Source of the DNA: a virus
Length of the DNA stretch: 30,692 nucleotides
IMG/VR virus record: IMGVR_UViG_3300032293_001336
Location: 1-30,692 of that record
Reading direction: 5' to 3' (one strand)
The translations under genes and the position numbers were made by a program. A model generated the notes under the pieces. The model saw nothing but the letters and a program-made list of their open reading frames with translations, was not told the origin of the DNA and ran no database searches. Position 1 is the first letter of the stretch, and each line of letters opens with the position of its first letter. This document shows, piece after piece, positions 1 to 30,692 of the stretch.

Positions 1-1563
1 CTTGATCTTCCCAGGTTTCTCCTCGAAGTAGCCTTCCTCATCCGGCTTGATGTCGGCTCCGGTATCGACGAAGACCGTTGTGCCATCTTCGAGAGGCATC
101 TCCTTGATCCTCTCGGACGGGATCTGCCACGCTCCTCCTGCCTCGACCGTATCTCGGACACTCGCCAGTGCCTGCTTCTTCACCTCCTCTCCCGGAGTGA
201 GACGCTCACCGGAGCGGAGCCGGTCGAGCATGGTAATAATCTTGTCTCGTCGCGGATCAGTGCCAAGCAGTGGAGGTCGAGCCTCTCCCCCGAGGACGAT
301 CTCGACCTGCCTTCGGATCGATTGGTATGCGACCCCATCTGGGTCGTTTGCTGGGTTGTAGTTGGAGACCTTGAGTTGTAGAGAGACGATCTCCTCCTCG
401 GTGTTGACCCGCTCCTTATTCAGTTTCTTTCGGAGGAGCGCGACGGTGGTCTCATCTGCGCCGGTCCCTTCGAGTTGCGCCATGAGTTGCTCCTCATTCT
501 TGATCGTGTTTGCCGCAATCCCTTCATCAGCACCCGCCACTCGGGCGTCACGTTCGGTGAGCACCTGTTTGTAGAGGTCTCCGATGAGTTCGCTTCTCGC
601 ACTTGGTGGCAAGTTCTGGTGGTGGAGGAAGTTCCCATCGGCATCCTTCGCCTGCATCTCGGCGAGAACTGCGGTCGGATCCTCTCCATCTTGGAGTCTG
701 GTGTTGATCGAGTTGCCGAGACTTATCGCCCCTTCTCTCGCATCATACTTCGCGAGTTCGTTGTCTCGCTCCTCAGGGGTCTCCCATTGTGTCTGCTCTA
801 TGATCGAGCGACCCAAAGCATAGTCGCCCCGGATCGCAGCAGTCTCTGCCTGCATTCGAGCAGATTCGATGTTGTCGCCTCGGACCTTGTCCTCGATGTC
901 CCACATCGTCCGCACTGCCCAGTCCTCACCTTCCCATCCCTCCGCGACAACCGTGTCTACGATTGCCTGCGCCCCTACCAGGTCGCCTGCCTTCGCCGCT
1001 CGCCAGAGTTCCGCGACTGATGCGTCCCGTGCTCGACCGATGATCTCCTTCTGTGCGTCGAGATCGACGTTGAGTCCAAACCGGGTGCCGAAGGTGACGA
1101 CCCTCTGGTTGATTTCCTCCTTTGCGGCAGGCGAAAGATCGCCGGAGAGCAATTGCCCGCGCACTTTCTCGAATCGGTTCGACCACTCGGTCCCCCACTT
1201 GGTGGGATCAGGCTCCGACAGTTTGAACTTCTGGAAGTCGGCGACGGCAGCATCCATGACATCCTGCGCCTCGGACAGTTTCGTAAAGTTCCACGCCCTC
1301 GCGATCCGCTCCTGCACATCGAACACTGCCTTCCCCACATCCTTCACTCCTGCGCCGACCGCAGAGAGTCCTCTCATGGTCGCCTGTCCCAGATCCTGGG
1401 GAGCATTCGGGATAGGTGCCGCCGCATCGTCTACGGCACTGGAGAGATTGGCAAGACCCCGGAGCGCAGTTGATGCGTCCACTCGCTCCCGTTGCACCGA
1501 CTCAAGTGCGGGGGAGACCGGGTTCGCCGGTCCTTCTGCGCGATACTGTGGGACGATGGGCAT
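1..1563 (-). CDS. Large internal virion protein, N-terminal part (runs off the left edge)
   Basis: An open frame of 521 codons begins at ATG 1563-1561 (MPIVPQYRAEG) and reads to base 1 without a stop. It starts 3 bases after the stop of the upstream gene. The product is almost entirely predicted helix, rich in Ala, Glu, Arg and Gln, with no signal peptide or clear catalytic motif in the part seen. Its place directly after a gp14-like protein and a small membrane protein is that of the T7 gp15/gp16 ejection proteins, which leave the capsid to form a conduit across the cell envelope. The frame ends exactly on a codon boundary at base 1 and continues in phase with the frame entering at base 30692, giving 1401 residues if joined. 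T7 gp16 is of similar size. The role is inferred from position and size, not from a recognised domain. Confidence 0.72.
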   Translation of the reverse strand, partial: MPIVPQYRAEGPANPVSPALESVQRERVDASTALRGLANLSSAVDDAAAPIPNAPQDLGQATMRGLSAVGAGVKDVGKAVFDVQERIARAWNFTKLSEAQDVMDAAVADFQKFKLSEPDPTKWGTEWSNRFEKVRGQLLSGDLSPAAKEEINQRVVTFGTRFGLNVDLDAQKEIIGRARDASVAELWRAAKAGDLVGAQAIVDTVVAEGWEGEDWAVRTMWDIEDKVRGDNIESARMQAETAAIRGDYALGRSIIEQTQWETPEERDNELAKYDAREGAISLGNSINTRLQDGEDPTAVLAEMQAKDADGNFLHHQNLPPSARSELIGDLYKQVLTERDARVAGADEGIAANTIKNEEQLMAQLEGTGADETTVALLRKKLNKERVNTEEEIVSLQLKVSNYNPANDPDGVAYQSIRRQVEIVLGGEARPPLLGTDPRRDKIITMLDRLRSGERLTPGEEVKKQALASVRDTVEAGGAWQIPSERIKEMPLEDGTTVFVDTGADIKPDEEGYFEEKPGKIK

Positions 1564-6482: not shown

Positions 6483-9131
6483 TTATGGGATTCTCGTAAG
6501 TCGCACCACCGCCCCTTTAAGCACTGTTAAACTTCCACCGCTTTCTGATCCTAATCGCACGTTAATTTGCCCAATGGATGATCCATTTATAACTGTTGCA
6601 TACGCTCTAAAGGGAAGCACCTCAGTAGAACCCGCTCCTTCTAAAGCCTGTGAAAAAAATGAGCTTGCTGTAAGTGATGTTCTTGAAACGCTTGTTGCCG
6701 TCCAATGCTCAATTCCATATTGCACGTACGGCGATCCAGTTGTTGGCCCGTCAAAACGCACAAACATCCCAGAAGTTGTTGAAGTAGTGCTGCGATAGCC
6801 AATCACCTCAACAAGCATTTTTTCATTTGGCTGGATTATAATGATAGGGAGAAGTCCCACACCGTTTACGGAGCTGGTTACTATATTATCGGTGAGCATA
6901 TAAACGATTGATGGTGGTATGCCATCAAGCTTTGCAGCATATGCCGCAGTCATCAGACCGTCTTGGCTTGCCGTAGCGTCTCTGATCTTGTCGTTGCCTC
7001 CGGTGACATGAGTTGAAGCATGCGGAGCAGGAACTATATTACTAAGGAGCGGAGTGCGGAAAAAGTTGTTTTCAAGCGTTGCATAAAATTGCGCGGAGGA
7101 CGCAACTGGGACGGTTCCTTGGATTTCACACCAATAAAAGACCCCGCTACCAACAGTTCCATTCGCCGCGGAATCTGTTCCCGATCCTGCTGTAAAGGTG
7201 ATAGAGGCAAGGTAGCATCCGAAAAGTTTATACGTTGGAGTGGATCCTCCATCGTTATTGCCCCCAGTCGCAGAAGTGCCGATGAGATTCAATGTAATCG
7301 CCACTGATCTATCACTTATGAGCACCGGTTTCTTCGGGGTATAGCCCGGTTCAAAAGGACCGGGGGTTAAGCCTGACCAATTTATCGTGAGGGTTGTTTG
7401 AAGTCTGCTCAGTCCTCTGATGCGAACGATTTCTTCGGAGTCTCCTATCGAGTAGTAGGTGATCGTGTAGTTGCCAGCACCCAGCTCGATGTTCCTCGCC
7501 CCCGCATTCCACGCCGCTTGTGCCGTTAGGAATGGGTAGGAGGGATTCCCAACGACTCCGGTCGAATCGAGTCCCGATGAATTGACCCAGGTGATGAGGG
7601 GTGTCAAGATGGTAGCCCCTGGGGGACCGGGAGGACCGGCAGGACCGGCAGGACCAGGAGGTCCACCTTCCGGGCCTTGAGGTCCAGTCGGTCCCTGTGG
7701 TCCCTCCGGTCCCTGTGGACCGGTAAGTCCCCGCAGTCCCTGTGGTCCTGTGAGTCCCTGTGGACCCTGCGGTCCCGCCACGTTCGATGCTGGTCCCTCT
7801 GGACCCTGCGGTCCCGTGAGTCCCGTTGGTCCTGTGAGTCCCTGTGGACCCTGCGGTCCTGTGAGTCCTTGAATTCCCTGCGGTCCTGTTGGTCCAGTCG
7901 GTCCCGGAACGGTCGATACTGGTCCCTGTGGACCCGTTTGTCCTTGGATTCCCTGTGGACCCGTGAGTCCTTGGATTCCCTGCGGTCCCTGCGGTCCACC
8001 TGTTCCCGCGATGATCCCGTGGAGCGGAGGCGTGGTGAAATCCTCATCGAGGGCACCTGATCCAACGACGGTGAAATCGACATACGTCGATTGCGTCGTT
8101 TTCGCAGTGATTTTGAATTGTGCGGCTTTGTCGAATGCGGAGATGTAGATCGAATGTCCGACAACGATGTCGTTGAACCATGTCGTGTGGTTCTGACTGT
8201 ATTGGTCACTTTTCGCGATTCTTAGCAAGGTGACGCTACTGACCACATTATTGTTTACCGTAAAGAATCCCGCCGTAGGAATCGCTCCGTTTGTCCCGCG
8301 ACGATAGGCGAGTCCAGCCACCCCGCCGTTCTGTCCATCAAGACCAGTCGGTCCAAGTGGTCCTTGCATGCCAGTCGCACCTTCTGGTCCCTGCGGTCCT
8401 GTTGGTCCCTGTGCACCAGTCGCGCCGGTCAGTCCCTGTGGTCCTGCTGGACCCTGCGGTCCTGTAGGTCCAGTTGGTCCAGGCACAGTGGATGCTGCTC
8501 CCGGTGGACCGGTCGGGCCGATCACCGTCCGAACGTGATCGAAGTCTCCGTTCATCGGTCTCTGGTGCCGACCAAACCCGCCGGTCGAGAGAGGGTCCGC
8601 ACTCCTCGCTCCGGTTCCGGCATCAACGAATCGCGCCGCCTTGGCGATCTTCTGTCCCTGCTCGATGAGGTCTTTCCTGCGGGAGTCACTGCCGGTGACG
8701 TCCATGCAGATGGCAGCAGCAAGGTGGTGCGCGAAGGCATCGGCGAAGAGCGAGTCGAACTGTGAGCAGTCGGTCACCTGCCGCACATAGGTGATATGTG
8801 CTGAGCTTGAGTTGGTGAGAAGCATCCCGCCCTCGATGGCGAAGGAGGTCTGGCACCGTGCGGTCTCGACCCGGTTGAAGGTCACTACCCGCAAGCAATC
8901 AGACGGGAGGGGGAACTGATACTGCCACTCGAAGGCAGGGGACTCGGGAGACTTGGAGAGTTCGACTCTCTCTGTCGCGAAGTCCCATGGGTGCCCCCGG
9001 AGGAGCGAGTCTCGGACAGGCTCGAAGTGGATGCCGATGGAGCGTGCCGGTGCGGTGCCGTCATCGAGGTAGCTGAGCGCAGGTTGCCCGAGGAGTGAGA
9101 GTGCCCTATTCGCAAGATCGGTCTTGGTCAT
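6483..9131 (-). CDS. gp11-like tail tube domain fused to a collagen-like tail fibre
   Basis: Residues 1-about 185 are a second gp11-type tail tube domain, clearly paralogous to the gene just upstream (shared MT-TDLAN-ALS-LG, VRDSLLR-H-W-FAT, PSD-LR and FVDAG...ADPL). From about residue 205 come Gly-Pro-rich triplets of collagen type (about 205-269 and 378-505), separated by a roughly 105-residue beta-type domain. Residues 510-about 740 look like a beta-rich body with an [13 protein letters not shown] motif seen in phage fibres. The last 130 or so residues form a Ser/Thr/Val-rich beta C-terminus, probably the receptor-binding tip. The 3' quarter of the gene is AT-richer than the rest. The fusion would anchor trimeric collagen-like fibres directly in the tail adaptor ring. 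The start overlaps the upstream gene by ATGA. Confidence 0.9.
7611..8010 (-). repeat. Collagen-like tandem triplet repeats (second, longer block)
   Basis: On the minus strand this stretch is a run of GGN-CCN-CAG/ACN-type 9-base units encoding Gly-X-Y triplets ([18 protein letters not shown]). A shorter block lies at about 8325-8518. The near-identical 9-base units are prone to in-frame gain or loss of repeats, which would alter fibre length. Confidence 0.85.
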
Positions 9132-9745: not shown

Positions 9746-9758
9746 CGTCGGGCAGGAG

Positions 9759-9830
9759 TTGCGGGAAGGGGAATCGAACCCCTCCTTGAGGGATATGAAC
9801 CCTCCGTCCTAACCGATAGACGATCCCGCG
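9759..9830 (-). tRNA. tRNA with CAU anticodon, initiator-like (C1 opposite A72)
   Basis: Read on the minus strand, the 72-base sequence folds as a full cloverleaf. The acceptor is CGCGGGA/TCCCGCA, with the first position C opposite A72 unpaired and the other six paired. The D arm is GTCT/GGAC with GG in the loop, the anticodon stem is GAGGG/CCCTC with loop TTCATAT (anticodon CAU), the variable region has four bases, and the T arm is AGGGG/CCCCT with loop TTCGATT. The discriminator is A and no CCA is encoded. The C1-A72 mismatch plus three G:C pairs at 29-31:39-41 are the known identity features of bacterial initiator tRNA. The D arm instead has U11:A24, which is elongator-like and resembles tRNA-Glu. 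It lies between a terminator and the tail tube gene. Confidence 0.88.
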
Positions 9831-19933: not shown

Positions 19934-20319
19934 GCCTTGAGATAGGTGGTGATTTCAGTAACTGCCTCGTCGCGTCCATAGGCGACGACGACCTTGTAGT
20001 TCCGGTCCCGCAGGGCGGTGACCCATTCGCGTTGCAGGTCGGAGAGACCCCCCTTGGACTTCTGTGTCTTCGGACGGTTGTCCTGGGTCTTCATCTCGAT
20101 GAAGAGACCGTGATACCCATGCCGAGGGACCGGCAGGAAGATGTCGGGCACTCCAGGCTTGACCCCTTCTGCCTTCATCTTCTTGGCGACGAGCATGTTT
20201 CGGTGCCCACCGTTGGGGATGGCGAACATCCACCGGAGGTCGGGGAAGTCGCGGAGCATCCATCCTGCCCAGAGGAAGACCCCTGACTGCTCATCGTGTT
20301 CTAGAGGGTAGGGTCTCAT
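19930..20319 (-). CDS. VRR-NUC domain nuclease
   Basis: The 129-residue protein is a stand-alone VRR-NUC domain of the PD-(D/E)XK fold. It has FAIPNGGHRN (about 32-41), GVKPGVPDIFLP with Asp59, FIEMKTQ with Glu75 and Lys77, and the LSDLQREWVTAL helix followed by KVVVAYGRDEAV. Phage members act as Holliday-junction or flap nucleases (Hjc-like) in recombination and packaging, but this one could also be a general repair nuclease. It overlaps the methyltransferase gene by 4 bases and the winged-helix gene by ATGA. Confidence 0.92.
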   Translation of the reverse strand: MRPYPLEHDEQSGVFLWAGWMLRDFPDLRWMFAIPNGGHRNMLVAKKMKAEGVKPGVPDIFLPVPRHGYHGLFIEMKTQDNRPKTQKSKGGLSDLQREWVTALRDRNYKVVVAYGRDEAVTEITTYLKA

Positions 20320-21608
20320 GTCAATCTTTTAAGCAAGGTTCGGAATGCATGCTCTGCTGTTGCCGGCACCACTCCGTTTCCAAGGAGGCGTAGTTCGTCG
20401 GTGCGATTGTCACAGGAGACATACAACTGGGCATGACCCATCCAATCGGCAGACCCATCAACGTCTCTACCCAACGAGGGTTGAGCTTCCCGTTCTGCTG
20501 CCTTTCCCTCAAATACACTGGCGAATGCACTGCCTCGCGCAAATTGCTCAACGCTTTTCGATTCTTTCTGCCGCCACGGGTCCGATTGCTTTCCGCAAAC
20601 TCGGCCACCGGACGAACCGGCAACACGTCCATTGTCTGCGGAGTTGGCCATGACTGCTGCGCTTGAGCCAGTAGACTGTGTTGCTGCCCTTTCGGCTGCC
20701 TCCCCTCCCTGACTGCTCTCCTGGAGTTCGTGTTTGGGGCCTCCGGTGCCTGTGTCGGAGTGTGCCACAACCCTAGGTGGTTCCCACTCATGCTGGGGTT
20801 CTCCTGGGCGGGATGGCCATTCTTGCGTTTCTCGTATTTGTCTCTCGTCACCTCCCCTTGAATCGCTGGGTGATTGCTCAATCCGACTTGTCCATAGTTG
20901 GGTTGGTTGCTGATTTTCCCCGCTTCTGCCACAGTCGGAGTCGGCCATGACGCAACCGTGACCACTGCCTGATCCAGTGTGTCCATTGCTCGACTCTTCC
21001 CATCGGACCTGATCATTGATTCGGGTCGATATGCGCCCTTGTAGTCCCTCGTCGTTGCGGTTGGCCATGATGAAGACGCGCTTCCGTTGGTGTGGTGCTC
21101 CGACTTCAGACGCAGAGAATACTCCTGCCGTTGCTCGGTAACCCACCCTTTCCAACTCTCGGAGGACATGGAGCAAAACTGGGGTGCCGGCAGGATCCCG
21201 CCATCCATCTCCTGCGAGTCTGGAGGACAAGATTCCTTCAACGTTCTCAAGGAAAACAATGGCAGGTCCGCACTTTCTAACTCCGTCCAGAATGTAGGGG
21301 AAGAGATGCCGAGGGTCTTCGTCTCCTTCGCGTTTTCCTGCTGCGGAGAATGGTTGACAAGGAAAGCCTCCAGAGAGGAGGTCCACCTTCCCGCGAAACT
21401 CTTCCCAAGGGAAGGTTTTAAGATCCGACCAGACAGGTGCTGAGTCCAGGAGTCGCGACTCCATTTTTGAGACCAAGTTTGCGCAGGCGAAACCCTCGAT
21501 CTCAGCATAAGCAACCGTGCGCAGACCTCGGACTGCTCGGTGAAGTCCGAGATCAATTCCTCCGTATCCGGCGCAGAGGGAGATGTGAGTGATTTGGGAA
21601 TTATCCAT
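20316..21608 (-). CDS. DNA cytosine-C5 methyltransferase
   Basis: Starting at ATG 21608 (MDNSQITHISLCAGYGG), the 430-residue product has the ordered motifs of C5 methyltransferases: motif I LCAGYGGIDLGL (11-22) for AdoMet, motif IV PCQPFSAAG (83-91) with catalytic Cys84, motif VI ENVEG (121-125), motif VIII QRKRVFI (174-180) and motif X LRLLGNGVVPATAEHAF (406-422). Between VIII and X lies a long polar region with four spaced MA-N/D/H-S-type units (about 181, 220, 281, 319), where the target-recognition domain should be. It may protect phage DNA from host restriction. The whole gene is also open in a second frame on the same strand. The start lies just after the upstream stop. Confidence 0.93.
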   Translation of the reverse strand: MDNSQITHISLCAGYGGIDLGLHRAVRGLRTVAYAEIEGFACANLVSKMESRLLDSAPVWSDLKTFPWEEFRGKVDLLSGGFPCQPFSAAGKREGDEDPRHLFPYILDGVRKCGPAIVFLENVEGILSSRLAGDGWRDPAGTPVLLHVLRELERVGYRATAGVFSASEVGAPHQRKRVFIMANRNDEGLQGRISTRINDQVRWEESSNGHTGSGSGHGCVMADSDCGRSGENQQPTQLWTSRIEQSPSDSRGGDERQIRETQEWPSRPGEPQHEWEPPRVVAHSDTGTGGPKHELQESSQGGEAAERAATQSTGSSAAVMANSADNGRVAGSSGGRVCGKQSDPWRQKESKSVEQFARGSAFASVFEGKAAEREAQPSLGRDVDGSADWMGHAQLYVSCDNRTDELRLLGNGVVPATAEHAFRTLLKRLT

Positions 21609-21613
21609 GTCAT
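20321..21613 (-). CDS. Overlapping second-frame reading of the methyltransferase gene (430 aa)
   Basis: A second ATG at 21613 overlaps the upstream stop (ATGA, as for most genes here) and opens a frame of exactly 430 codons that ends 5 bases from the methyltransferase stop. Its N-terminal 170 residues have no recognisable fold. The rest holds four spaced W-x-T-P-like units (SWPTATTRDYKG at 182, SWPTPTVAEAG at 222, LWHTPTQAPEAP at 282, SWPTPQT at 321) and LNPRWVETLMGLPIGW at 377-392. I recall this last motif, with its WPTPT repeats, from the C-terminal parts of some phage methyltransferase-type proteins. It could be a true overlapping gene, a product of ribosomal frameshifting from the methyltransferase frame, or an open frame preserved by the repeats. 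Not proven. Confidence 0.4.
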   Translation of the reverse strand: MTWIIPKSLTSPSAPDTEELISDFTEQSEVCARLLMLRSRVSPAQTWSQKWSRDSWTQHLSGRILKPSLGKSFAGRWTSSLEAFLVNHSPQQENAKETKTLGISSPTFWTELESADLPLFSLRTLKESCPPDSQEMDGGILPAPQFCSMSSESWKGWVTEQRQEYSLRLKSEHHTNGSASSSWPTATTRDYKGAYRPESMIRSDGKSRAMDTLDQAVVTVASWPTPTVAEAGKISNQPNYGQVGLSNHPAIQGEVTRDKYEKRKNGHPAQENPSMSGNHLGLWHTPTQAPEAPNTNSRRAVREGRQPKGQQHSLLAQAQQSWPTPQTMDVLPVRPVAEFAESNRTRGGRKNRKALSNLREAVHSPVYLRERQQNGKLNPRWVETLMGLPIGWVMPSCMSPVTIAPTNYASLETEWCRQQQSMHSEPCLKD

Positions 21614-21930
21614 CGGAAAAGACGCGCCTCCCTCGCAGCATCATGGGCAAGGTCACCTAGGTGGTCGCAGGTATCGCAGATTCCCCAGTCCCGACCGTGC
21701 GGGCAGTGTGGCTCATTATCGAGCGGAGGTTCCTCGACTGTGTTCTGCTCCCATGCCGGATCGATGTCGTGCTGTGCGCTCTGCTCTTGGTTCCATGCGT
21801 CTATCGCTTTGCGGATAGCGTCGGCGACAGATTTTGGCGGATCCTCCTGATCGATAAGGGTTTCGAGCATGACATACCAGTCCGGTGGCTCCGGGTGGTC
21901 CGGTGGGTCGAGGTAGGAATCGAAGTTCAT
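21610..21930 (-). CDS. Small acidic protein with a Cys/His knuckle (106 aa)
   Basis: The product is acidic (MNFDSYLDPPDHPEPPDWYVML...), with a helical middle (VADAIRKAIDAWNQEQ) and a C-terminal HCPHGRDWGICDTCDHLGDLAHDAAREARLF. The spacing C-x-H-x(6)-C-x(2)-C-x-H suggests a zinc knuckle. Small proteins ending in this CPHG---GxC--C motif occur in many phages, with no known role. ATGA overlap with the upstream gene, and its stop overlaps a start in the next, indicate coupled translation in the early operon. Confidence 0.75.
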   Translation of the reverse strand: MNFDSYLDPPDHPEPPDWYVMLETLIDQEDPPKSVADAIRKAIDAWNQEQSAQHDIDPAWEQNTVEEPPLDNEPHCPHGRDWGICDTCDHLGDLAHDAAREARLFR

Positions 21931-22334
21931 CGCCCCCCCTTTCCGAACATCCGGTCTAGGACATCATGCGACGGGAGATGGTCGATGCTAGGAGGGTTGC
22001 CCGGTTTGGCGGGGATCAGTTTCGCGGGGATCACTCGCCGGGGTTCTGCGGGTCGCATCACCCCACCCACCATACGGGCAGGTCTCGCCCCCCTGATGGT
22101 CGCGGGCCGGATATGTTCCGGCTTTTCGTCCATGCCTCCCGAGGTATCGACCTTCCCCCCGAGGGAGGTGTATTTATCGAGCCTGCGTTGAAGGATATCG
22201 CGCAGTTTCTGAGATAGCTCGAAGTCCTTGATCTTGTGCTCCGGTAGGAGAGATCGAACTGCTCGCAGGTTGAGGCGGATGACCCGCGCCTGCCCGAGGA
22301 GTTCGGGATGGTAGATGGAGATGTGCTTACTCAT
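21927..22334 (-). CDS. Hypothetical early protein (135 aa)
   Basis: Start at ATG 22334, overlapping the nuclease stop by ATGA (MSKHISIYHPELLGQARVI). The N-terminal 65 residues form helices (VIRLNLRAVRSLLPEHK, LSQKLRDILQRRLDKYTSL). The C-terminal half is Pro/Arg/Ala-rich and probably disordered (GARPARMVGGVMRPAEPRRV). I do not recognise a family. Position between the nuclease and the zinc-knuckle protein suggests an accessory role in early DNA metabolism. Confidence 0.68.
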   Translation of the reverse strand: MSKHISIYHPELLGQARVIRLNLRAVRSLLPEHKIKDFELSQKLRDILQRRLDKYTSLGGKVDTSGGMDEKPEHIRPATIRGARPARMVGGVMRPAEPRRVIPAKLIPAKPGNPPSIDHLPSHDVLDRMFGKGGR

Positions 22335-23212
22335 GCCACCCCTCCGTCGATGCCTGGTGCCGAGACGAGACCGTCGAGATCCTCTTCGTCCTGGATCGCG
22401 GCATAAGCGGGACGTCCGATCATGGTCACCTTGTCGTTCCCGAATCCCGGCCATTTATTCGCCTTGGTTGCGGCGATGAGCCGGTCGAGTTGGTAGCCCG
22501 CCCACTCCTTGCCAGAGTCGATGTCGTGAGCGGGGAGTTCGGTCACTGCGACCTCGAAGGGTGCGGTGTTCGATTGCCAGATGAACCTCCAACGGTCCTT
22601 GGGTTGGTCAGGGAAGCAGAGGTTCCATAGCCGGAGATACCATGCCGCTTGAATGTGATATGCGAAGGAGTGGATCGCCTTCGAGATCCCCCGAGGGGTG
22701 AGGTCGCGGGTGGTCTTGAGGTCGTAGAGACAAGGACCGTCCGGGACAAGGTCGAGTAGTGCCTTGCACTGCACATCTTTGATCTTCCCGAGGAGGACGA
22801 CCTGCTTCTTTGCGTTCCGCACCACAGGACCGGCGACCGGATGACCAAGCACTGCCGCAACCGCAGTCTCAGCGAGGCGCATGTCCTCGACGGAGACGAC
22901 GATCTGTCCTTTCGCCGTCGCGGACTTCTTGAGGTCTTGTGCTGCCTTCGACCGGAAGTCGGCGAACGGATTGATGATCACCGAGGATGCGGTCAGTTCC
23001 GGGGTGAGGAGCATGCAATCGACAAGCGATCCCCAGGTCATCGATGTAGTGGTCTCCTTCTCTTCGGGAGCGTTTCTCCACCTCCAGAGGGTGGACTCGT
23101 TGAGTTCCCACAGGCGACTCTTCGACATGTAGGAGTCAGGGGAGAAGATGTTGGACCGGTCGAGCTTGAGCCGGGAGTGGTATTCGAGAGGGGAGACTTC
23201 GAGAGGAATCAT
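22331..23212 (-). CDS. RecE/Cas4-like PD-(D/E)XK exonuclease
   Basis: Start at ATG 23212 (MIPLEVSPLEYHSRLKLDRS), giving 293 residues. Sequence further upstream in frame belongs to the previous gene. The N-terminal part has SKSRLWELNESTLWRWR and MTWGSLVDCMLLTPE, typical of the exonuclease VIII-like phage family. Catalytic residues are Asp154 (LLDLVPD), Asp164 and Lys166 (YDLKTT), and the QxxxY motif at Gln188-Tyr192 (YHIQAAWYL). Such enzymes resect double-stranded DNA ends to give single strands for annealing. No clear RecT or Erf annealase accompanies it, although the 109-residue gene just upstream is in the usual partner position. Confidence 0.87.
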   Translation of the reverse strand: MIPLEVSPLEYHSRLKLDRSNIFSPDSYMSKSRLWELNESTLWRWRNAPEEKETTTSMTWGSLVDCMLLTPELTASSVIINPFADFRSKAAQDLKKSATAKGQIVVSVEDMRLAETAVAAVLGHPVAGPVVRNAKKQVVLLGKIKDVQCKALLDLVPDGPCLYDLKTTRDLTPRGISKAIHSFAYHIQAAWYLRLWNLCFPDQPKDRWRFIWQSNTAPFEVAVTELPAHDIDSGKEWAGYQLDRLIAATKANKWPGFGNDKVTMIGRPAYAAIQDEEDLDGLVSAPGIDGGVA

Positions 23213-23222
23213 AGGTGGGAGT

Positions 23223-23552
23223 TCAGAGGGTTGCAGTGCGAACGCGAATACATGGGGTGTTCGGGTCTCCGAACGCGTCACAGGTGGTGCGATAGACGGT
23301 GATCTTCTGACCGATCCAGTGGTCAGTCTCATTGCCAAAGAACCGGCGGATGGCGCGAGCGTTGGTCTTGTTCAAGACCCATTCTTTCTGGACCTTGCCA
23401 AGCTTGACGATGGGCTTGTCGATGATGCGACCATCGCGCCCTTTGTCCTTCGGTCCTGCGACCCGGATAGACTCGATGGTGAGGGTGATGTCCTTGTCGG
23501 CAGGGAGGTCTTCCGCTTCGAGGAACCCGGAGAATAATTCTGAGACTTTCAT
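23223..23552 (-). CDS. Conserved phage early protein next to nuclease (109 aa)
   Basis: The product (MKVSELFSGFLEAEDLPADK...) has a beta-rich pattern: DITLTIESIRVAG, KPIVKLGKVQKEWVLNKTNARAI, then GNETDHWIGQKITVYRTTC and CIRVR. This is a common phage protein type (pattern: DV-V-I--V, K-VL-F-G--K-LVLNKTNA--I---YG-ET--WIGK-ITLY) found beside recombination genes. The fold looks OB-like, so ssDNA binding is possible. It has the leader CAACCAACCACC before ATG and lies 10 bases before the exonuclease gene. Confidence 0.82.
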   Translation of the reverse strand: MKVSELFSGFLEAEDLPADKDITLTIESIRVAGPKDKGRDGRIIDKPIVKLGKVQKEWVLNKTNARAIRRFFGNETDHWIGQKITVYRTTCDAFGDPNTPCIRVRTATL

Positions 23553-23605: not shown

Positions 23606-23965
23606 TTAGAACGACGGAGTGTTGAGGGCGGCAATCGCGTTCCGCAGCAGGTCGGTCGCCGTCGAGAGTCGGATCTCCAGGTCGGAGATCGTCGGCTGGA
23701 CTTGGTCTGCCTTGACTCCCATGCCGTCCCGAAAGCCTTTGGAGTAGATGGACTGCTCCCGAGGGGTGGAGACCGCATCCTCGGTGAACTTCACGATCCG
23801 ATTGAATGCCGATACCGTGAACTCCTTAGCCACTTCGCGACCGGCGACTTCTGCCTCTTCGGGCGTTTCAAAGTGAGCGACGGAAAGCCAAGCTTTCCCC
23901 GTGACGGTGGAGAGGTATTCCACCTTGTAGATGACCCTTTCGGGCAATGTTTCGATGATTATCAT
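23606..23965 (-). CDS. Hypothetical early protein (119 aa)
   Basis: Start at ATG 23965, overlapping the upstream stop by ATGA (MIIIETLPERVIYKVEYLS). The first 60 residues read as a small alpha-beta domain with TGKAWLSVAHFETPEEAEVAGREVAKEF. The C-terminal 50 residues form a helical region with spaced Leu and Ile (ISDLEIRLSTATDLLRNAIAAL), a likely coiled coil. I do not recognise a family. It belongs to the leftward early operon. Confidence 0.7.
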   Translation of the reverse strand: MIIIETLPERVIYKVEYLSTVTGKAWLSVAHFETPEEAEVAGREVAKEFTVSAFNRIVKFTEDAVSTPREQSIYSKGFRDGMGVKADQVQPTISDLEIRLSTATDLLRNAIAALNTPSF

Positions 23966-24186
23966 TTGTGGTTCTTTTTGGGTTCGGGGTATTCCCCATT
24001 CAAAATTCTTGCCTCCGCTCGACGGAGGTCTTCGATGGCGTAAATGCACAGAGACCGACCTGCGGCTCCCTTGCGCTCAACGCGTGGCTGGATCCAGCCT
24101 GCCGCGATGACGTCGTCGGTGATCTTGCGACCGAGTGTGCGATACAGGTCTGCCTGTGAGCAGATGCGGGACTCGATGCTCTTCAT
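23962..24186 (-). CDS. Small DNA-binding-like protein, excisionase-type candidate (74 aa)
   Basis: The 74-residue basic protein (MKSIESRICSQADLYRTLGR...) begins with a helix-turn-helix-like segment (QADLYRTLGRKITDDVIAAGWIQP), followed by a possible wing (RKGAAGRSLCIYAIEDLRRAEARI). The pattern resembles MerR-like/excisionase small proteins, in which a wing ends with Y---D---AE-R. Its place early in the lytic operon, near attP and the integrase, would suit an excisionase, but the fold call is tentative. Both ends overlap neighbours by ATGA. Confidence 0.68.
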   Translation of the reverse strand: MKSIESRICSQADLYRTLGRKITDDVIAAGWIQPRVERKGAAGRSLCIYAIEDLRRAEARILNGEYPEPKKNHK

Positions 24187-24425
24187 GCTGCCGCTCCTTT
24201 AAGCCAAAGGTCTCCGTCGAAGTCCTCGAAGAGGAGCGTCTCGACATCGTCCGCATCGGGGTCGTTGAGAAACTTGGAGACCAGCAGGGAAGTCGAGACA
24301 TGGACGACGACGGGTTTATCGCCATCGACCAACTTGACCCAGGCGAAGACCTCGGCTCCGTCGAGAATCTTGGCGGCAGCATCCCTCATCGTGAGAAGGT
24401 GATGATCGCGAGGATTGAAGGTCAT
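24183..24425 (-). CDS. Hypothetical early protein (80 aa)
   Basis: Start at ATG 24425, overlapping the stop of the RHH regulator (ATGA), giving MTFNPRDHHLLTMRDAAAKI. The sequence suggests one helix followed by beta strands (AEVFAWVKLVDGDKPVVVHVSTSLL) and an acidic C-terminus (DPDADDVETLLFEDFDGD). The acidic, compact build is typical of early phage proteins that inhibit or redirect host enzymes, but nothing in it identifies a target. It is cotranscribed from the leftward promoter. Confidence 0.65.
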   Translation of the reverse strand: MTFNPRDHHLLTMRDAAAKILDGAEVFAWVKLVDGDKPVVVHVSTSLLVSKFLNDPDADDVETLLFEDFDGDLWLKGAAA

Positions 24426-24586
24426 GCTGCCACCTCCTCGGGTTCGGAGTGCTCGTCCTGACTCTGGAGTTTCTCGGCGATCCAAACCTCAAGCAGGTTT
24501 GAGAACGACCGCTTCTCAGCGGCGGCGAATGCCTTCGCTCTTTCGAGCGTTGCTTCGTCAAGTGATACGGTTGTGGTTACTTTCAT
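24422..24586 (-). CDS. Ribbon-helix-helix regulator, first gene of the leftward operon (54 aa)
   Basis: A 54-residue frame from ATG 24586 reads MKVTTTVSLDEATLERAKAF and ends at 24422, overlapping the next start by ATGA. It is a complete ribbon-helix-helix domain: strand TTTVSLD (4-10), helix A 12-24, turn, and helix B from SFSNLLEVWIAEKLQ. It shares about 17 of 38 aligned core residues with the facing rightward gene (RS-SN-LE and LQS at the ends), so the two are paralogues. As the first lytic-direction gene it occupies the place of Cro and probably binds the same operators. An acidic tail follows the domain. Confidence 0.8.
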   Translation of the reverse strand: MKVTTTVSLDEATLERAKAFAAAEKRSFSNLLEVWIAEKLQSQDEHSEPEEVAA

Positions 24587-24612
24587 TATTCGTTGATATA
24601 AACAGATTGGAA

Positions 24613-24641
24613 GGAATATGCCGTATCACGGCAAGGGTCAA
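24613..24641 (-). promoter_or_regulatory. Leftward early promoter (sigma70-like)
   Basis: On the minus strand TTGACC (-35, 24636-24641) and TATTCC (-10, 24613-24618) are separated by exactly 17 bases. It lies 27 bases before the ATG of the 54-residue RHH gene and would drive the whole leftward operon. The spacer contains the palindromic operator at 24619-24633. Confidence 0.68.
24619..24633. promoter_or_regulatory. Operator O1: perfect 6-3-6 palindrome in the leftward promoter spacer
   Basis: TGCCGTATCACGGCA is a perfect inverted repeat of 6-bp arms around ATC. It fills the promoter spacer directly upstream of the -10. Bound protein would block RNA polymerase. The likely binders are the two RHH proteins encoded on either side. 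Confidence 0.75.
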
Positions 24642-24649
24642 GAAAAAAG

Positions 24650-24677
24650 TTGAACATTTTGTATTTTGCCGTATTAC
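24650..24677 (+). promoter_or_regulatory. Rightward promoter for the lysogeny-side RHH gene
   Basis: TTGAAC (24650-24655) and TATTAC (24672-24677) are 16 bases apart and lead toward the RHH gene starting at 24702. A second operator-like copy overlaps the -10. Confidence 0.55.
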
Positions 24678-24678
24678 G
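24667..24678. promoter_or_regulatory. Operator-like site O2 overlapping the rightward -10
   Basis: TGCCGTATTACG matches 11 of the first 12 bases of O1 (TGCCGTATCACG). The second arm is not conserved, so it is a half-site or weaker site. It covers the -10 of the rightward promoter, which would allow autoregulation. Confidence 0.6.
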
Positions 24679-24697
24679 TTGTAATCAAAAATTACAA
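24679..24697. promoter_or_regulatory. Inverted repeat before the rightward RHH start codon
   Basis: TTGTAAT and ATTACAA form a perfect 7-bp inverted repeat with a 5-base spacer, four bases before the ATG at 24702. It may be an RNA hairpin limiting ribosome access or a third protein-binding site. Confidence 0.45.
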
Positions 24698-24701
24698 TCT
24701 G

Positions 24702-24902
24702 ATGAAAAAAGCACGGAGTCACGCACGCTCGGAGGGCAAGACCCAGACGAGCATTTCCCTGAGAAAAGAAGTCTTGGACGCAGCAAAGGAGGCTGCCGCG
24801 AAGGACAATCGGAGTCTGTCCAACTGGTTGGAGATTCTTCTCAAGGAGCGACTGCAATCGGAATCGTCCAAGTCAGGGAGCACTGAGGAAGGTGGCGTGT
24901 GA
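24702..24902 (+). CDS. Ribbon-helix-helix regulator, lysogeny side (66 aa)
   Basis: I start at ATG 24702 (MKKARSHARSEGKTQTSISL). A TTG further upstream would put the start inside the promoter. The 66-residue protein has a basic N-terminal arm (1-12), the RHH strand KTQTSISLR (13-21), helix A (about 22-35), a turn at DNRS and helix B (LSNWLEILLKERLQ), then a short polar tail. It is paralogous to the facing leftward RHH gene and is the best candidate for the prophage repressor, since no larger CI-like repressor is present. RHH dimers insert the strand pair into the major groove, as in Arc, Mnt and CopG. It is transcribed toward attP and integrase. Confidence 0.83.
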   Translation: MKKARSHARSEGKTQTSISLRKEVLDAAKEAAAKDNRSLSNWLEILLKERLQSESSKSGSTEEGGV

Positions 24903-25001
24903 TTTGTGTGTTCATGCGACGGGAACATCCTACAGCAAGGGGTGGGACATTCGCGGCGCAGTAGGTGGTTTTTTGAACACTTTTTAAACTTGGCCCCCAG
25001 T

Positions 25002-25304
25002 CGTGCCTTTGTCCTTGAATCGTGCTATTTCTGCGCTACCCTCCCGCGGATGACGCTGAAAAAGACAGGCAAAAAAGACAGTTTGGCTAAGACAGTCGAA
25101 CGGCCCGAAAGCCTCAAACCCTTACAGCAGTAAGGCAAAGCTCGGTTAGCTCAGGGGTAGAGCACCTGCTTCACACAAGCGCAAAGCGTGCCTTTTTTCC
25201 CGTCTTTTCAAGGAATTCCCCGTCGTTAGTGCGTGCAATTTGTGCTATTTTCGCGCCAATTAAGACAGTCCACTAAGACAGTCGGACCCAATAGTCTAAG
25301 ACAT
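25002..25304 (+). other. attP: attP-like region with arm-type repeats around a tRNA core
   Basis: The 408-base stretch between the RHH and integrase genes holds no gene. It contains TAAGACAGTC-type repeats on both sides of a tRNA fragment. Left side: AAGACAG at 25062-25068, 25075-25081 and 25089-25095. Right side: 25262-25268, 25275-25281 and a partial copy at 25298-25304 (AAGACAT). Further pairs are CGTGCCTTT at 25002 and 25187, and GTGCTATTT at 25022 and 25242, one member on each side. A perfect inverted repeat CCTTAC...GTAAGG is at 25120-25135. This is the layout of an attP with arm-type integrase sites on both sides of a core. Confidence 0.75.
25140..25176 (+). other. 5' half of a tRNA-Val(CAC)-like gene, probable attP core
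   Basis: GCTCGGT-TA-GCTC-AGGGGTA-GAGC-A-CCTGC-TTCACAC is a perfect tRNA 5' half from acceptor strand to the end of the anticodon loop (anticodon CAC, valine). The expected GCAGG that would close the anticodon stem is missing: the next bases are AAGCGC. It cannot be a working tRNA. It is best read as identity with a host tRNA gene, with strand exchange in or near the anticodon stem-loop. Confidence 0.75.
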
Positions 25305-25310
25305 GATCAT

Positions 25311-26306
25311 ATGAACGGTGTTTTCAAACGAGGAAAAAGGTTCTGGTTCCGATTCACCTGGGAGGGTCGGCAACGGTTTGTGAACCTTGGGACCGACCAT
25401 GAACCAGACGCGATCAACGCCGCGATGAAGGTTCTCGCGAACCCTTCCGAATGGATGACCGGCACCGACCATATCGTCGCCCTCCTCGACCAGTTCCTCT
25501 CTCTGAAGACTCTCAGGGGAGTGTCACCGGCATGGACGACTGAAGAGCGGACCCGGCTCGGAGCGTTCTTCCGCGACTACAAGATCAAGCATGCAAGCGA
25601 CATCACACGGTCGAAGGTGACGCAGTGGATGGATGTCCACTGGGCGAGGAACCAGGACACAGGGAACTCCTACCTCGCGAGTCTCGCCCGGTTCACCCGG
25701 TGGCTCCGAGAACACGGGCACCTCTCGACGGACCCGTGCGAGGGGATCCCGAGGAGGAAAGCCAAGATGCGCGTTCGGAAAAGGTTCCTCTCTCGGGAGG
25801 AGTGCCGTCACCTCTTGGATTTCTGCACCGATCCTGATCTGAAGATGTGCTTGTATTTCGGGATCCATTGCGGTCTCCGCAAGGGAGAGGTCTTGCAGGT
25901 CGCGCCTCACTGGCTCGACGTTGAGAACGGTCTGTTGCATGTGCAAGCCTCAAAGGACTGGCAACCGAAGGACAGGGACAACAGAACCATCCCCCTGACG
26001 AAGGAGTTCCTCGCATTCCTTCTCCCCTACGCAGACCGGGAACCCTACATCGTGCGTCCTGATGTGGTTGCTGGCGCAGGTCGATACCGGTGGGATTTCC
26101 GCAGACCCTTCACCGATCTGCTCGAAGAGGTCGGGGTGAAATGCACGTTCCACGATTTACGCCGCACCTTCGCGTCCCAACTGGTCTCCTCTGGCGTGTC
26201 AGCCTACAAGGTCGCCCGGTGGCTCGGAGACGGCATGGCAGTGGTGGAGCGTCACTACGGGCACCTTATTCCGAACGACGAGGACATCAACAAGGCATGG
26301 GGATAA
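25311..26306 (+). CDS. int: Tyrosine recombinase (phage integrase)
   Basis: Start chosen at ATG 25311 (MNGVFKRGKRFWFRFTW). An in-frame GTG at 25233 would read through the repeat sites. The 331-residue protein has an arm-binding-type N-terminus (1-40), a SAM-like core-binding domain (about 50-140) and a catalytic domain from about 160. Catalytic residues are Arg190 in HCGLRKGE, Lys215 in ASKDW, His281 and Arg284 in FHDLRRTF, and nucleophile Tyr316 in RHYGH. The usual LGH before the tyrosine is LGD (Asp307). The adjacent attP-like region with a tRNA half is its expected target. Its 3' end overlaps the convergent last lysis-cluster gene by 20 bases. Confidence 0.95.
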   Translation: MNGVFKRGKRFWFRFTWEGRQRFVNLGTDHEPDAINAAMKVLANPSEWMTGTDHIVALLDQFLSLKTLRGVSPAWTTEERTRLGAFFRDYKIKHASDITRSKVTQWMDVHWARNQDTGNSYLASLARFTRWLREHGHLSTDPCEGIPRRKAKMRVRKRFLSREECRHLLDFCTDPDLKMCLYFGIHCGLRKGEVLQVAPHWLDVENGLLHVQASKDWQPKDRDNRTIPLTKEFLAFLLPYADREPYIVRPDVVAGAGRYRWDFRRPFTDLLEEVGVKCTFHDLRRTFASQLVSSGVSAYKVARWLGDGMAVVERHYGHLIPNDEDINKAWG

Positions 26307-28049: not shown

Positions 28050-30692
28050 TCAGTCGGGGATGAGGTTGGATCCGAGGTCAAAGACGTCTCGGATGACATG
28101 GAGAACGGAGACTCCTGCGGCGGCAGAGTCGTTGAAAAGGCCGATGGCAGAGGCGATCTTCTCGACATCCCGCAGGACGTCGGTCGAATCGAAGTCGATG
28201 AAGAGGTTCTTGAAGGCACCCGGTGCTGCTGCGATGGAGGAGAACAGACCGGAGTCGGGTCGGTATTCCCCTGCGGCAGCAAAGATCGCTCCCTGGATCT
28301 CCTCGCCGATTACAGGGAACCCGAAAAGCCAGTCGGTCGAGGCACTGAGCGCAATGCGTCGAACCGACCAATACTTCTCGTCGAAGACCTCTTCATCCTC
28401 GTCATCTCGCAGGTCTCGCCATGCGTTGCGGACCACCCCGGCGAGCACTCCATTGAGGAGGACGACAAAGAGGAAAGCTCGGGCCTTTTCCGCGTTGGTG
28501 CCTTTCGCCAGTGTGTAGCCGAGGAGCGCGAAGTTTTTTCTCGCATCCGACCCGAATGCCCAGGAAAGCTTCGCAATTGGGGATGTCGCGGAAATTTCGT
28601 AGAAAGAGCGGGTGCCCATGCGTGTGGGCTGGGCAAGGTTCTCGACGATGCGCTCAGTCTCCGCATGAGCCTCGGCGACGGGATCTGATGCTTTTCGTTT
28701 CTTCGCCTGCTTCAGTTGGTAGTCGTAAACGATGGCGTAGGTTCCTGATGTGAACCTTGCGTCTGTCGCTGAGAGGAGTTGCCCTGTCTTCCTCACGGCA
28801 TGCTTCAGACGGGTCGGCTCGGACGCTCGCAGTCCTTCCATCGCGAGTTGAACGTGGACCGGCGCGGCCTTGAGCCTGCGTTGCATGTAGGCCGAGTCGA
28901 GAGCATCCCTCCACTGGAGGTTGCCGGTGAGCAATTTCGACAAGCGCAGGACGAACGCTCCCGTTGGCATTGCTGCGCTTGCGGCCATGAGTTGAGTCGA
29001 TTGAATCAGTAGGGTGCCGACTCGACCGACCAGTGCCATTGATGCTGACCTGCCCACCATGCGGTCGTAGAGGTCTACCAGGGCAGTGCCTGCCGCCGCA
29101 TCCCGGTTCCCTCCCTGTGCGATCATGTCGATCCACTTTCGCAGGATCTTCACTGCCTCCTTGCCACTCGCTGCCGAGACGGAGTCGCCGAGATCACGGT
29201 TGCCGATCACTCCGCTCGCCTCGCGCATCAGCACTGCGTTCGCTTTCCAGTGAGCGATCTGCTTCTTATGGCTCAAGTAGGTCGCGATGGAGTCGCGGAA
29301 GTCAGGCTGAGCCGAGACCTGTGCGCGAGTGCGAAGGGATCCTGGTGTGAACGATCCAGCAGACACGGTGTTGCCGGTAGTGGGGTCAACGGTCTGCCCA
29401 TTGCCTGCCTGCTGGGGCTTGACCAGGAGCGGTGAGTAGTTCGCGTTCCTCGGCATGTTGATGCCGTAGATCTCCTTGTAGACCGCATTGAGGGGTTCAT
29501 ACTCCTGTGAGTATTGGTTGATCAGGAAGGTCAGCACCTTGTATCCGTTTTTTGAAAGCTTCGAGTAGATCTCGTCGATGAAGTCCTGCCCGTATGCCCA
29601 CTTCGAGACGATCTTACCGTTCTCGTCTCGCTTGCCTTTGAGATGCCTCTTGCCGTCCTCCTGCATCCACATGAGGAGCGCAGAGATCGCTTCAAGTTCG
29701 GAAAGGGGGACGACGTCGCCGGTCTCAGAGGTTGCGGTGAGGCTCCGTTGGGTCATCTCGTAGTGGAGTTTCTCCCCGGCGAACCGATTGCCTCCTGCGA
29801 GGGATGTGAAGAGATCCTCGATGCCGTCCGCGACCTGTTGAACCTCGTCGATCTTTTGGTTCTCGGCGCGGCGTTGCTCGTTGATGAACCACCGTCCCAC
29901 CTCATTGTCACCGAAGACCCAGGTGACCAACTGTTCAAAGTTGAGAAGGGAGAAGAACTTCTCCTTCATTCCTCCCGCCCAGGTCAACCCGATAGCCTCG
30001 GCCTTTCGAGTCTCAGACTCTAGTCCCGCCTTGCCGGTCGCCACTCGAAGGGAGGTGCGTTGCTGCTCTCGCCGATCTGCCTCTGCCTTCTTCTTGGTCT
30101 GGTAATCGAGGTAGCCCGCCTTCCAGACATCGGTGGCGAGGTCGAGGGCGGCATTCCTGCGCTCCGCTCCTGCGCCGTCGCGAACCTTGACCTTGATGGG
30201 ACGACCGTTTTTATCAACCTTGCCCGAGTCTGCGTAGACGTCGTTCCATCCGCCGAACATCCGCACCAGTTCCGCCTCAAGGAGTTTGTGCGCTTCTTCC
30301 TCCGGGGTGAGGTTGCCTGCGGCGACGATAGCTTCAAGTCCGAGGGCATGTGCCTCTGCGTCGTCTACGCTCCAGAGTTTCTTCGCCCTCTTGACGGTCT
30401 CGAAGAGGTCGTGGATGTCGGCACCCGCCTTGCCCTTTCGGGCCTTGCCAGACTCGTCCTTGGCGGGTTTGGCGATCTCGAAGAGTTTCTTGACTCCGTC
30501 GTTCGCTTCCTTCTTGAGGTGCGCTTCGAGGACGTCGTCGAGCCTCTTGAGCCGGGTCTCCAGTTCGTTGACCATGGCACCCGGTTCGGTGAGCGTGGCG
30601 ATCTTCACCATGCCGCCGATCTTGCCTCTCAGTTCCACCGGCAGAGCGGAGATCATGGCATCGAGGGTGCGGAGTGCGGCGACCATCGTCTC
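28050..30692 (-). CDS. Large internal virion protein, C-terminal part (runs off the right edge)
   Basis: The frame is open from base 30692 (first codons GAG, ACG, then ATG at 30686) to a stop at 28050, giving 880 residues in the window. The product is a very long helical protein with Ala, Lys, Glu and Arg. It has NEVGRWFINEQRRAENQKID in its first half, further on MLMWM/KGKRDENGKI, and near the C-terminus a hydrophobic segment (ARAFLFVVLLNGVLAGVV) followed by DDEDEEVFDEKYWSVRRIAL and WLFGFPVIGEEIQGA. This is typical of gp16-type ejection proteins and related large polyvalent phage proteins. No transglycosylase motif is seen in either half. If the ends join, the full protein has 1401 residues. 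Confidence 0.85.
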   Translation of the reverse strand, partial: ETMVAALRTLDAMISALPVELRGKIGGMVKIATLTEPGAMVNELETRLKRLDDVLEAHLKKEANDGVKKLFEIAKPAKDESGKARKGKAGADIHDLFETVKRAKKLWSVDDAEAHALGLEAIVAAGNLTPEEEAHKLLEAELVRMFGGWNDVYADSGKVDKNGRPIKVKVRDGAGAERRNAALDLATDVWKAGYLDYQTKKKAEADRREQQRTSLRVATGKAGLESETRKAEAIGLTWAGGMKEKFFSLLNFEQLVTWVFGDNEVGRWFINEQRRAENQKIDEVQQVADGIEDLFTSLAGGNRFAGEKLHYEMTQRSLTATSETGDVVPLSELEAISALLMWMQEDGKRHLKGKRDENGKIVSKWAYGQDFIDEIYSKLSKNGYKVLTFLINQYSQEYEPLNAVYKEIYGINMPRNANYSPLLVKPQQAGNGQTVDPTTGNTVSAGSFTPGSLRTRAQVSAQPDFRDSIATYLSHKKQIAHWKANAVLMREASGVIGNRDLGDSVSAASGKEAVKILRKWIDMIAQGGNRDAAAGTALVDLYDRMVGRSASMALVGRVGTLLIQSTQLMAASAAMPTGAFVLRLSKLLTGNLQWRDALDSAYMQRRLKAAPVHVQLAMEGLRASEPTRLKHAVRKTGQLLSATDARFTSGTYAIVYDYQLKQAKKRKASDPVAEAHAETERIVENLAQPTRMGTRSFYEISATSPIAKLSWAFGSDARKNFALLGYTLAKGTNAEKARAFLFVVLLNGVLAGVVRNAWRDLRDDEDEEVFDEKYWSVRRIALSASTDWLFGFPVIGEEIQGAIFAAAGEYRPDSGLFSSIAAAPGAFKNLFIDFDSTDVLRDVEKIASAIGLFNDSAAAGVSVLHVIRDVFDLGSNLIPD

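Follow-up and report, generated by a model that had tools for sequence, protein, structure and literature searches.

The lysis-lysogeny switch of the phage studied here is rather probably formed by two mutually repressing dimers of ribbon-helix-helix (RHH) proteins, a device resembling mnt/arc of P22 that would act in this phage as the main switch. The two genes lie side by side in a stretch of 30,692 bases deposited as an IMG/VR record, the whole of which is called the window below, and they separate the integration functions from the lytic operon.

The facing RHH genes and their genomic setting

RHH1 (24422-24586, minus strand, 54 aa) leads the leftward, lytic operon and has the position of Arc or Cro, and RHH2 (24702-24902, plus strand, 66 aa) has that of Mnt or CI, with attP and int downstream. 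Both ORFs are transcribed divergently from a shared gap of 115 bp (24587-24701); the sizes, the facing orientation and the distance are those reported in a preliminary description of the sequence. The same description put the similarity of the two proteins at about 45%, and BLASTP aligned them with 21 of 50 residues identical (42%, E = 7e-8), which bears out their paralogy. RHH2 begins with a short N-terminal arm, RSHAR, absent from RHH1.

By sequence similarity the two proteins belong to the RHH (MetJ/Arc) superfamily. RHH1 matched DUF6364 of Pfam over the cut-off (3.8e-6) and RHH2 matched it under the cut-off, and in PHROG both matched Arc-like repressors (1.5e-4 for RHH1 and 7.6e-4 for RHH2; PHROG 3180 and others for the pair). 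The predicted model of RHH1 gave PutA, CopG, CopASO, ParG and Arc as top fold matches in the PDB (best E 0.065), no RHH structure was present among the PDB fold matches of the RHH2 monomer model, and the PDB sequence search returned nothing for RHH1 and one irrelevant match for RHH2.

The leftward order behind RHH1 comprises two small unknowns, of 79 aa (24183-24422, minus strand) and 74 aa (23962-24186, minus strand), which are 85% and 73% identical, respectively, to their counterparts in L034/G001 and have no Pfam match, then unknowns of 119 and 109 aa and an exonuclease VIII-like gene (22331-23338, minus strand; PHROG 412, 5.8e-52). Beyond the latter the early operon continues with a C-5 cytosine DNA methylase gene (20316-21656, minus strand), the adjoining VRR-NUC nuclease gene and a DnaC/IstB-like ATPase gene, followed by the terminase, portal and capsid genes. 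A tRNA-Met (CAT) gene (9758-9830, minus strand) is located inside the phage between the tail and head genes, and in an 882-aa protein (6483-9131, minus strand) long collagen-like GPx repeats appeared by eye to be joined to an N-terminus of the tail-tube type.

The rightward order is RHH2, the 5' half of a tRNA-Val gene and, on the same strand as RHH2, a tyrosine integrase gene (25311-26306, plus strand; Pfam Phage_integrase 5.3e-12, PHROG integrase 1e-44), which places the pair at the boundary of lysogenic and lytic genes. The probable attP core (25137-25176, plus strand) is the tRNA-Val(CAC) half itself, identical up to CTTCACAC to the intact gene that adjoins the L005/G001 pair in an Akkermansiaceae genome. 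This shared half indicates that the phage type integrates there, which leaves RHH2 as the phage gene nearest the junction; the contig of G001 stops about 3.9 kb into the prophage, short of any integrase. An integrase was found on the RHH2 side in the window, L003, L044 and L046, and the 392-aa ORF behind RHH2 in G536, which had a weak Pfam match (0.054), was excluded from this count. We infer that the window phage has its host among the Verrucomicrobiales/Akkermansiaceae, and it probably infects Verrucomicrobiota.

The phage bears the 5' half and not the 3' half of the tRNA-Val gene, extending to the anticodon loop (25137-25176; L005:4025-4064), and the tRNA in the prophage state would therefore depend on upstream phage DNA. 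The block TCCTTGAATCGTGCTATTTCTGCG, conserved upstream of the half in L005 as well as in the window, is a possible promoter.

Candidate operators, their recurrence and the RHH2 arm

Two putative promoters, both weak, were read from the sequence of the gap; a consensus promoter scan of 23800-25600 reported neither of them. The proposed leftward promoter (24613-24641, minus strand) consists of TTGACC, 17 bases and TATTCC, and its TTGAC-17-TA geometry is common to the window, L005, L003 and L044. Its spacer contains the candidate operator O1, TGCCGTATCACGGCA (24619-24633), with arms TGCCGT and ACGGCA around the centre ATC. The preliminary description spoke of a perfect palindrome filling the 17-base spacer; the 6-base arms are indeed perfect, but the 3-base centre breaks the perfection. 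Of the 17 spacer bases, which are bounded by GGTCAA (24636-24641; TTGACC on the minus strand) and GGAATA (24613-24618; TATTCC on the minus strand), O1 covers 15. The near copy that had been placed over the rightward -10 was found as the second candidate operator, O2, TGCCGTATTAC (24667-24677, plus strand), whose half-site TGCCG abuts and overlaps TATTAC (24672-24677); with TTGAAC (24650-24655) and 16 bases between them, this hexamer makes up the proposed rightward promoter (24650-24677, plus strand). A possible third site is the inverted repeat TTGTAAT-N5-ATTACAA (24679-24697) between O2 and the RHH2 start, which is present in shortened form in L005. In L003, L004, L014, L044, L055 and L057 the RHH2 start codon follows a -10-like TATTA by a few bases, which suggests that the RHH2 mRNA is leaderless in these loci.

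Exact matches to TGCCGTATYAC occur in the window only twice, both inside the gap. When the window gap was shuffled 2000 times with its dinucleotides preserved, a perfect 6-3-6 palindrome arose 109 times and a palindrome with 6-base arms and any spacer of 0-6 arose 536 times; two matches at ≤3 mismatches were reached in 16 of 100 shuffles. On these counts the window by itself does not establish significance, and its palindrome taken singly is weak evidence. The case for an operator is instead carried by the recurrence of such sequences in related loci.

The facing pair was found in 10 loci, namely the window and nine others in related phages and prophages, the latter being where the preliminary description had suggested looking: L003, L004, L005, L014/G009, L044, L046, L055/G598, L057/G612 and L059/G536. 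Scans of viral contigs yielded L003 and L004, then L044 and L046, and a scan of genome contigs yielded L005 from the Akkermansiaceae genome and a Gammaproteobacterial RHH, which was left out as a pair. In the family search 3 of 74 genomes matched, two of them with the pair, and this was the source of G009. The order search (10 of 386 genomes at 1e-7) was the source of G598, G612 and G536; among its matches the pair was present in five (G001, G009, G598, G612, G536) and absent from G487, G491, G054, G538 and G620. The phylum search (7 of 387 genomes at 1e-5) gave a pair, under the profile used, in G001 only, and the single match of the class search (1 of 384 at 1e-10) was G001 itself; the phylum, class, order and family samples overlap. 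No match was obtained by tblastn of P0001, P0002 and P0005 against 50,697 phage records or of P0014 against plasmids, and a DNA pattern search with O1 and O2 matched the L003 contig only. The operator survey was made without L052, L060, L061 and L062.

A perfect 6-3-6 palindrome is present in 7 of the 10 pair gaps; the gaps of L014 and L044 have a 5-3-5 palindrome, and that of L046 has neither form. The palindromes have three different sequences whose arms stay complementary (TGCCGT/ACGGCA, TGGTGT/ACACCA and CACTGT/ACAGTG). Against shuffles, seven of ten corresponds to a Poisson-binomial P of 3e-9 on the assumption of independent gaps, which these are not: one sequence class is common to three of them and a second class to three more. 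The 3-base spacer of the test was taken from the window, and other spacers were rarer in the 10 gaps (spacer 5 in 4 of 10, the rest in ≤2 of 10). By eye, the half-site next to the -10 of RHH2 agreed in class with O1 in 8 of 10 gaps (window, L005, L003, L044, L004, L014, L055 and L057).

The RHH2 arm tracked the class of the operator in 10 of 10 loci. The GCCGT class (four loci) is accompanied by the arm RSHAR or RNHDR, the GGTGT/GGTAT class (five loci) by RHGVR, RHGKR or RHGTR, and the CACTGT class, which is based on the single locus L059, by KMTQR. When the first seven loci were divided 4/3 in every possible way, the division by operator gave the highest number of arm columns in which the two groups had no residue in common (3). 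The GCCGT class forms one RHH2 clade (support 91/86), hence arm and operator probably changed once together and the 10 of 10 is not ten events. RHH1 has no arm, and its ribbon does not follow the operator class. Knight and Sauer reportedly showed in 1989 that arm residues set the specificity of Arc and Mnt.

Relatives of RHH2 without a facing RHH1 occur in G491, G487, G054 and G538. Two of these solitary genes, L056/G491 and L058/G487, combine the arm RHGMR with ATGGTGTGATATGG just 5' of the start codon and are possibly domesticated autorepressors. L066/G598 is a facing pair that has a perfect TTGGTGTGATACACCAA; the ORFs around it are chromosomal in appearance, as judged by eye, no phage gene having been noticed within 17 kb, and it may be a remnant or domesticated switch. 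Such loci count against the proposed switch and are relevant to the view, which we hold to be quite unlikely, that RHH1 and RHH2 are ordinary autorepressing regulators (antitoxin-like or operon autoregulators) that do not decide the lifestyle and share an operator by common descent. The weak Pfam scores, which put both proteins near the DUF6364, RHH and CcdA-type families, and the non-phage-looking region of the G598 pair speak for it, and the GGTGTGATA site at the start codon of the solitary relatives in G491 and G487 is what autorepressors would lead one to expect. However, divergent paralogs that are co-inherited with a shared operator over both promoters point to more than autoregulation, as do the antirepressor neighbours in L003 and L044 and the integrases on the RHH2 side in four loci. 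A toxin-antitoxin reading was rejected, since Pfam detected no toxin family in the next two window genes.

Relation to P22 immI and to other known switches

In P22 (AF217253) mnt (37994-38245, minus strand) faces arc (38336-38497, plus strand) across a gap of 90 bp, arc is followed by ant (38566-39468), and Mnt and Arc are 48% identical over 40 aa. In the preliminary description Arc and Mnt were cited only as RHH proteins that can regulate phage immunity; since their genes are facing paralogs 90 bp apart, the layout of the window has a precedent. The promoter heading arc-ant consists of TTGACA, 17 bases and TATATT, and its spacer is filled by a sequence which we take to be the Arc operator. 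immI has been regarded as an accessory circuit confined to P22-like phages. Mnt represses arc and ant, and Arc inhibits mnt (PMC11016777, PMC7549136); Arc also moderates ant (PMC11016777).

RHH1 and RHH2 are like immI in being paralogous RHH repressors that diverge over a short gap, and in the occupied spacer, that of the leftward promoter by O1 corresponding to that of the arc-ant promoter. In L003 (Bro-N+ANT) and L044 (AntA+ANT) the likeness extends to an antirepressor gene directly behind RHH1. The window differs in having the 79-aa unknown, and not an antirepressor, in this place, and in both the window and L005 other early genes follow RHH1 directly; in L004 an HTH_17 gene lies near the pair. 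Furthermore, immI is secondary to immC (c2/cro) and far from int, whereas the window pair stands at the head of the lytic operon, with attP and int close by. For the c2/cro region no counterpart was found (HTH_3 and S24, 0 of 3 records each; window probably incomplete).

A common descent with the P22 genes is not indicated. No window protein matched the Pfam family Arc (PF03869) at E up to 1, and neither RHH1 nor RHH2 matched the Mnt C-terminal family (PF11423), although Arc and Mnt of P22 do match PF03869/PF11423. Alignment of Arc with RHH1 gave no result, and that of Mnt with RHH2 no meaningful one. In the tree a single branch (99/97) separates all RHH1 proteins from all RHH2 proteins, so that the duplication predates these loci and the pair was inherited together. 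Arc and Mnt cluster together (100/100 and 99/97) apart from RHH1/RHH2, which, with very long branches and about 50 columns, favours a separate, independent duplication in P22.

The comparison with immI raises the question of the rank of the pair, and here the completeness of the records is of importance. The ends of the window (1-1563 and 28050-30692) lie in virion-protein ORFs, where record G003 is longer by about 5 kb; over matching genes from the terminase to the virion proteins G003 is 24-61% identical to the window. G003 contains two separate ORFs of 630 and 2469 aa there, and one window end corresponds to the N-part of one of these ORFs, the other end to the C-part of the remaining ORF. 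Between base 1 and base 30692 of the window about 5 kb is thus probably absent from within these ORFs, and the deposited contig is probably circularly permuted and gapped. A complete circular genome, considered because of a 1402-codon frame over the contig ends, was rejected, as G003 shows two ORFs at that place. G003 is itself probably complete, because it has an exact terminal repeat of 69 bases.

HTH_3 had no match in the window, G003 and G004, with 14 of 14 control genomes matched, and Peptidase_S24 none in the window, G003 and G464, with 13 of 14 controls matched. A CI/Cro-type HTH repressor pair was not found in the window, in agreement with the earlier statement that no such pair is present; this absence is not absolute, because the window probably misses the 5 kb.

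An alternative is that the pair has a secondary role, like its counterpart in P22, and controls an early operon (antirepressor or early proteins), the primary immunity repressor being an unrecognised protein elsewhere, perhaps a small unknown gene or one in the missing stretch. We regard this as unlikely. The antirepressor behind RHH1 in L003 and L044 reproduces the order of P22 mnt and arc-ant, small proteins without Pfam match follow RHH1 in the window, and the 5 kb that is probably missing would leave space for such a gene; yet the missing stretch falls inside the giant virion-protein ORFs of G003, the HTH_3 and S24 searches were negative in a record that is probably complete, and in the window and L005, which lack the antirepressor, RHH1 leads into replication and recombination genes.

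As to other systems, lambda CI and Cro are two divergent repressors with operators shared over both promoters, one of which heads the lytic operon. The RHH pair resembles them in having divergent repressors over shared, here predicted, operators and one repressor at the head of the lytic operon, and differs in the fold, RHH instead of HTH, and in that no RecA-cleavable S24 domain was found. A further small RHH protein that keeps lysogeny is the 55-aa F55 of the archaeal fusellovirus SSV1, the main viral player in this function; in the available part of the source it acts as a single protein on several copies of an 11-nt site, with no facing paralog described (PMC9608457). A facing RHH pair as primary switch was not found in the literature on RHH, lysogeny, immunity and P22 immI as far as it is openly accessible, with subscription journals represented to a small extent. 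The switch had been called unusual beforehand; the layout is classical, being that of immI, and the unusual features are the rank and the place of the pair, which stands alone, heads the lytic operon and lies by attP and int.

Proposed mode of action and its implications

RHH2 would be the lysogenic repressor, its dimers binding O1 through the ribbon and the N-terminal arm. In this position RHH2 would block the leftward promoter and keep RHH1 and the lytic operon silent. RHH1 would be an Arc/Cro-like early protein made once the leftward promoter fires; it would repress RHH2 by way of O2 over the rightward -10 and later limit its own promoter through O1. Such a switch would be bistable, with lysogeny and lysis as its two states, and would provide the primary immunity of the phage. 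In the circular phage RHH2, attP and int lie on one strand, and the rightward transcript would thus yield repressor and integrase together, until integration would cut int off from the RHH2 transcript.

As regards induction, no S24 domain was found in the window, G003 and G464, and antirepressors are present in two relatives only. The antirepressors of L003 and L044 suggest as their target either another repressor or RHH2 itself.

It is tempting to combine these elements into a self-sufficient RHH-only switch whose duplication was independent of P22, whose specificity resides in a five-residue RHH2 arm that changes with the operators, and in which integration uncouples int; we put this combination forward tentatively, as a possibility that falls short of being probable. 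In its arm code RxHxR would read GCCGT, RHGxR would read GGTGT and KMTQR would read CACTGT.

Although a layout of this kind was known before, the pair is set apart from P22 immI by its rank, its place and its apparently independent origin. If such a pair governs immunity unaided in phages of Verrucomicrobiota, evolution has arrived repeatedly at a two-repressor switch from unrelated DNA-binding folds, and two proteins of fewer than 70 residues each suffice to rebuild it. The classes of arm and operator constitute a directly testable specificity code and predict homoimmune members among these phages, and the facing RHH pair offers a way to spot temperate phages without CI/Cro genes.
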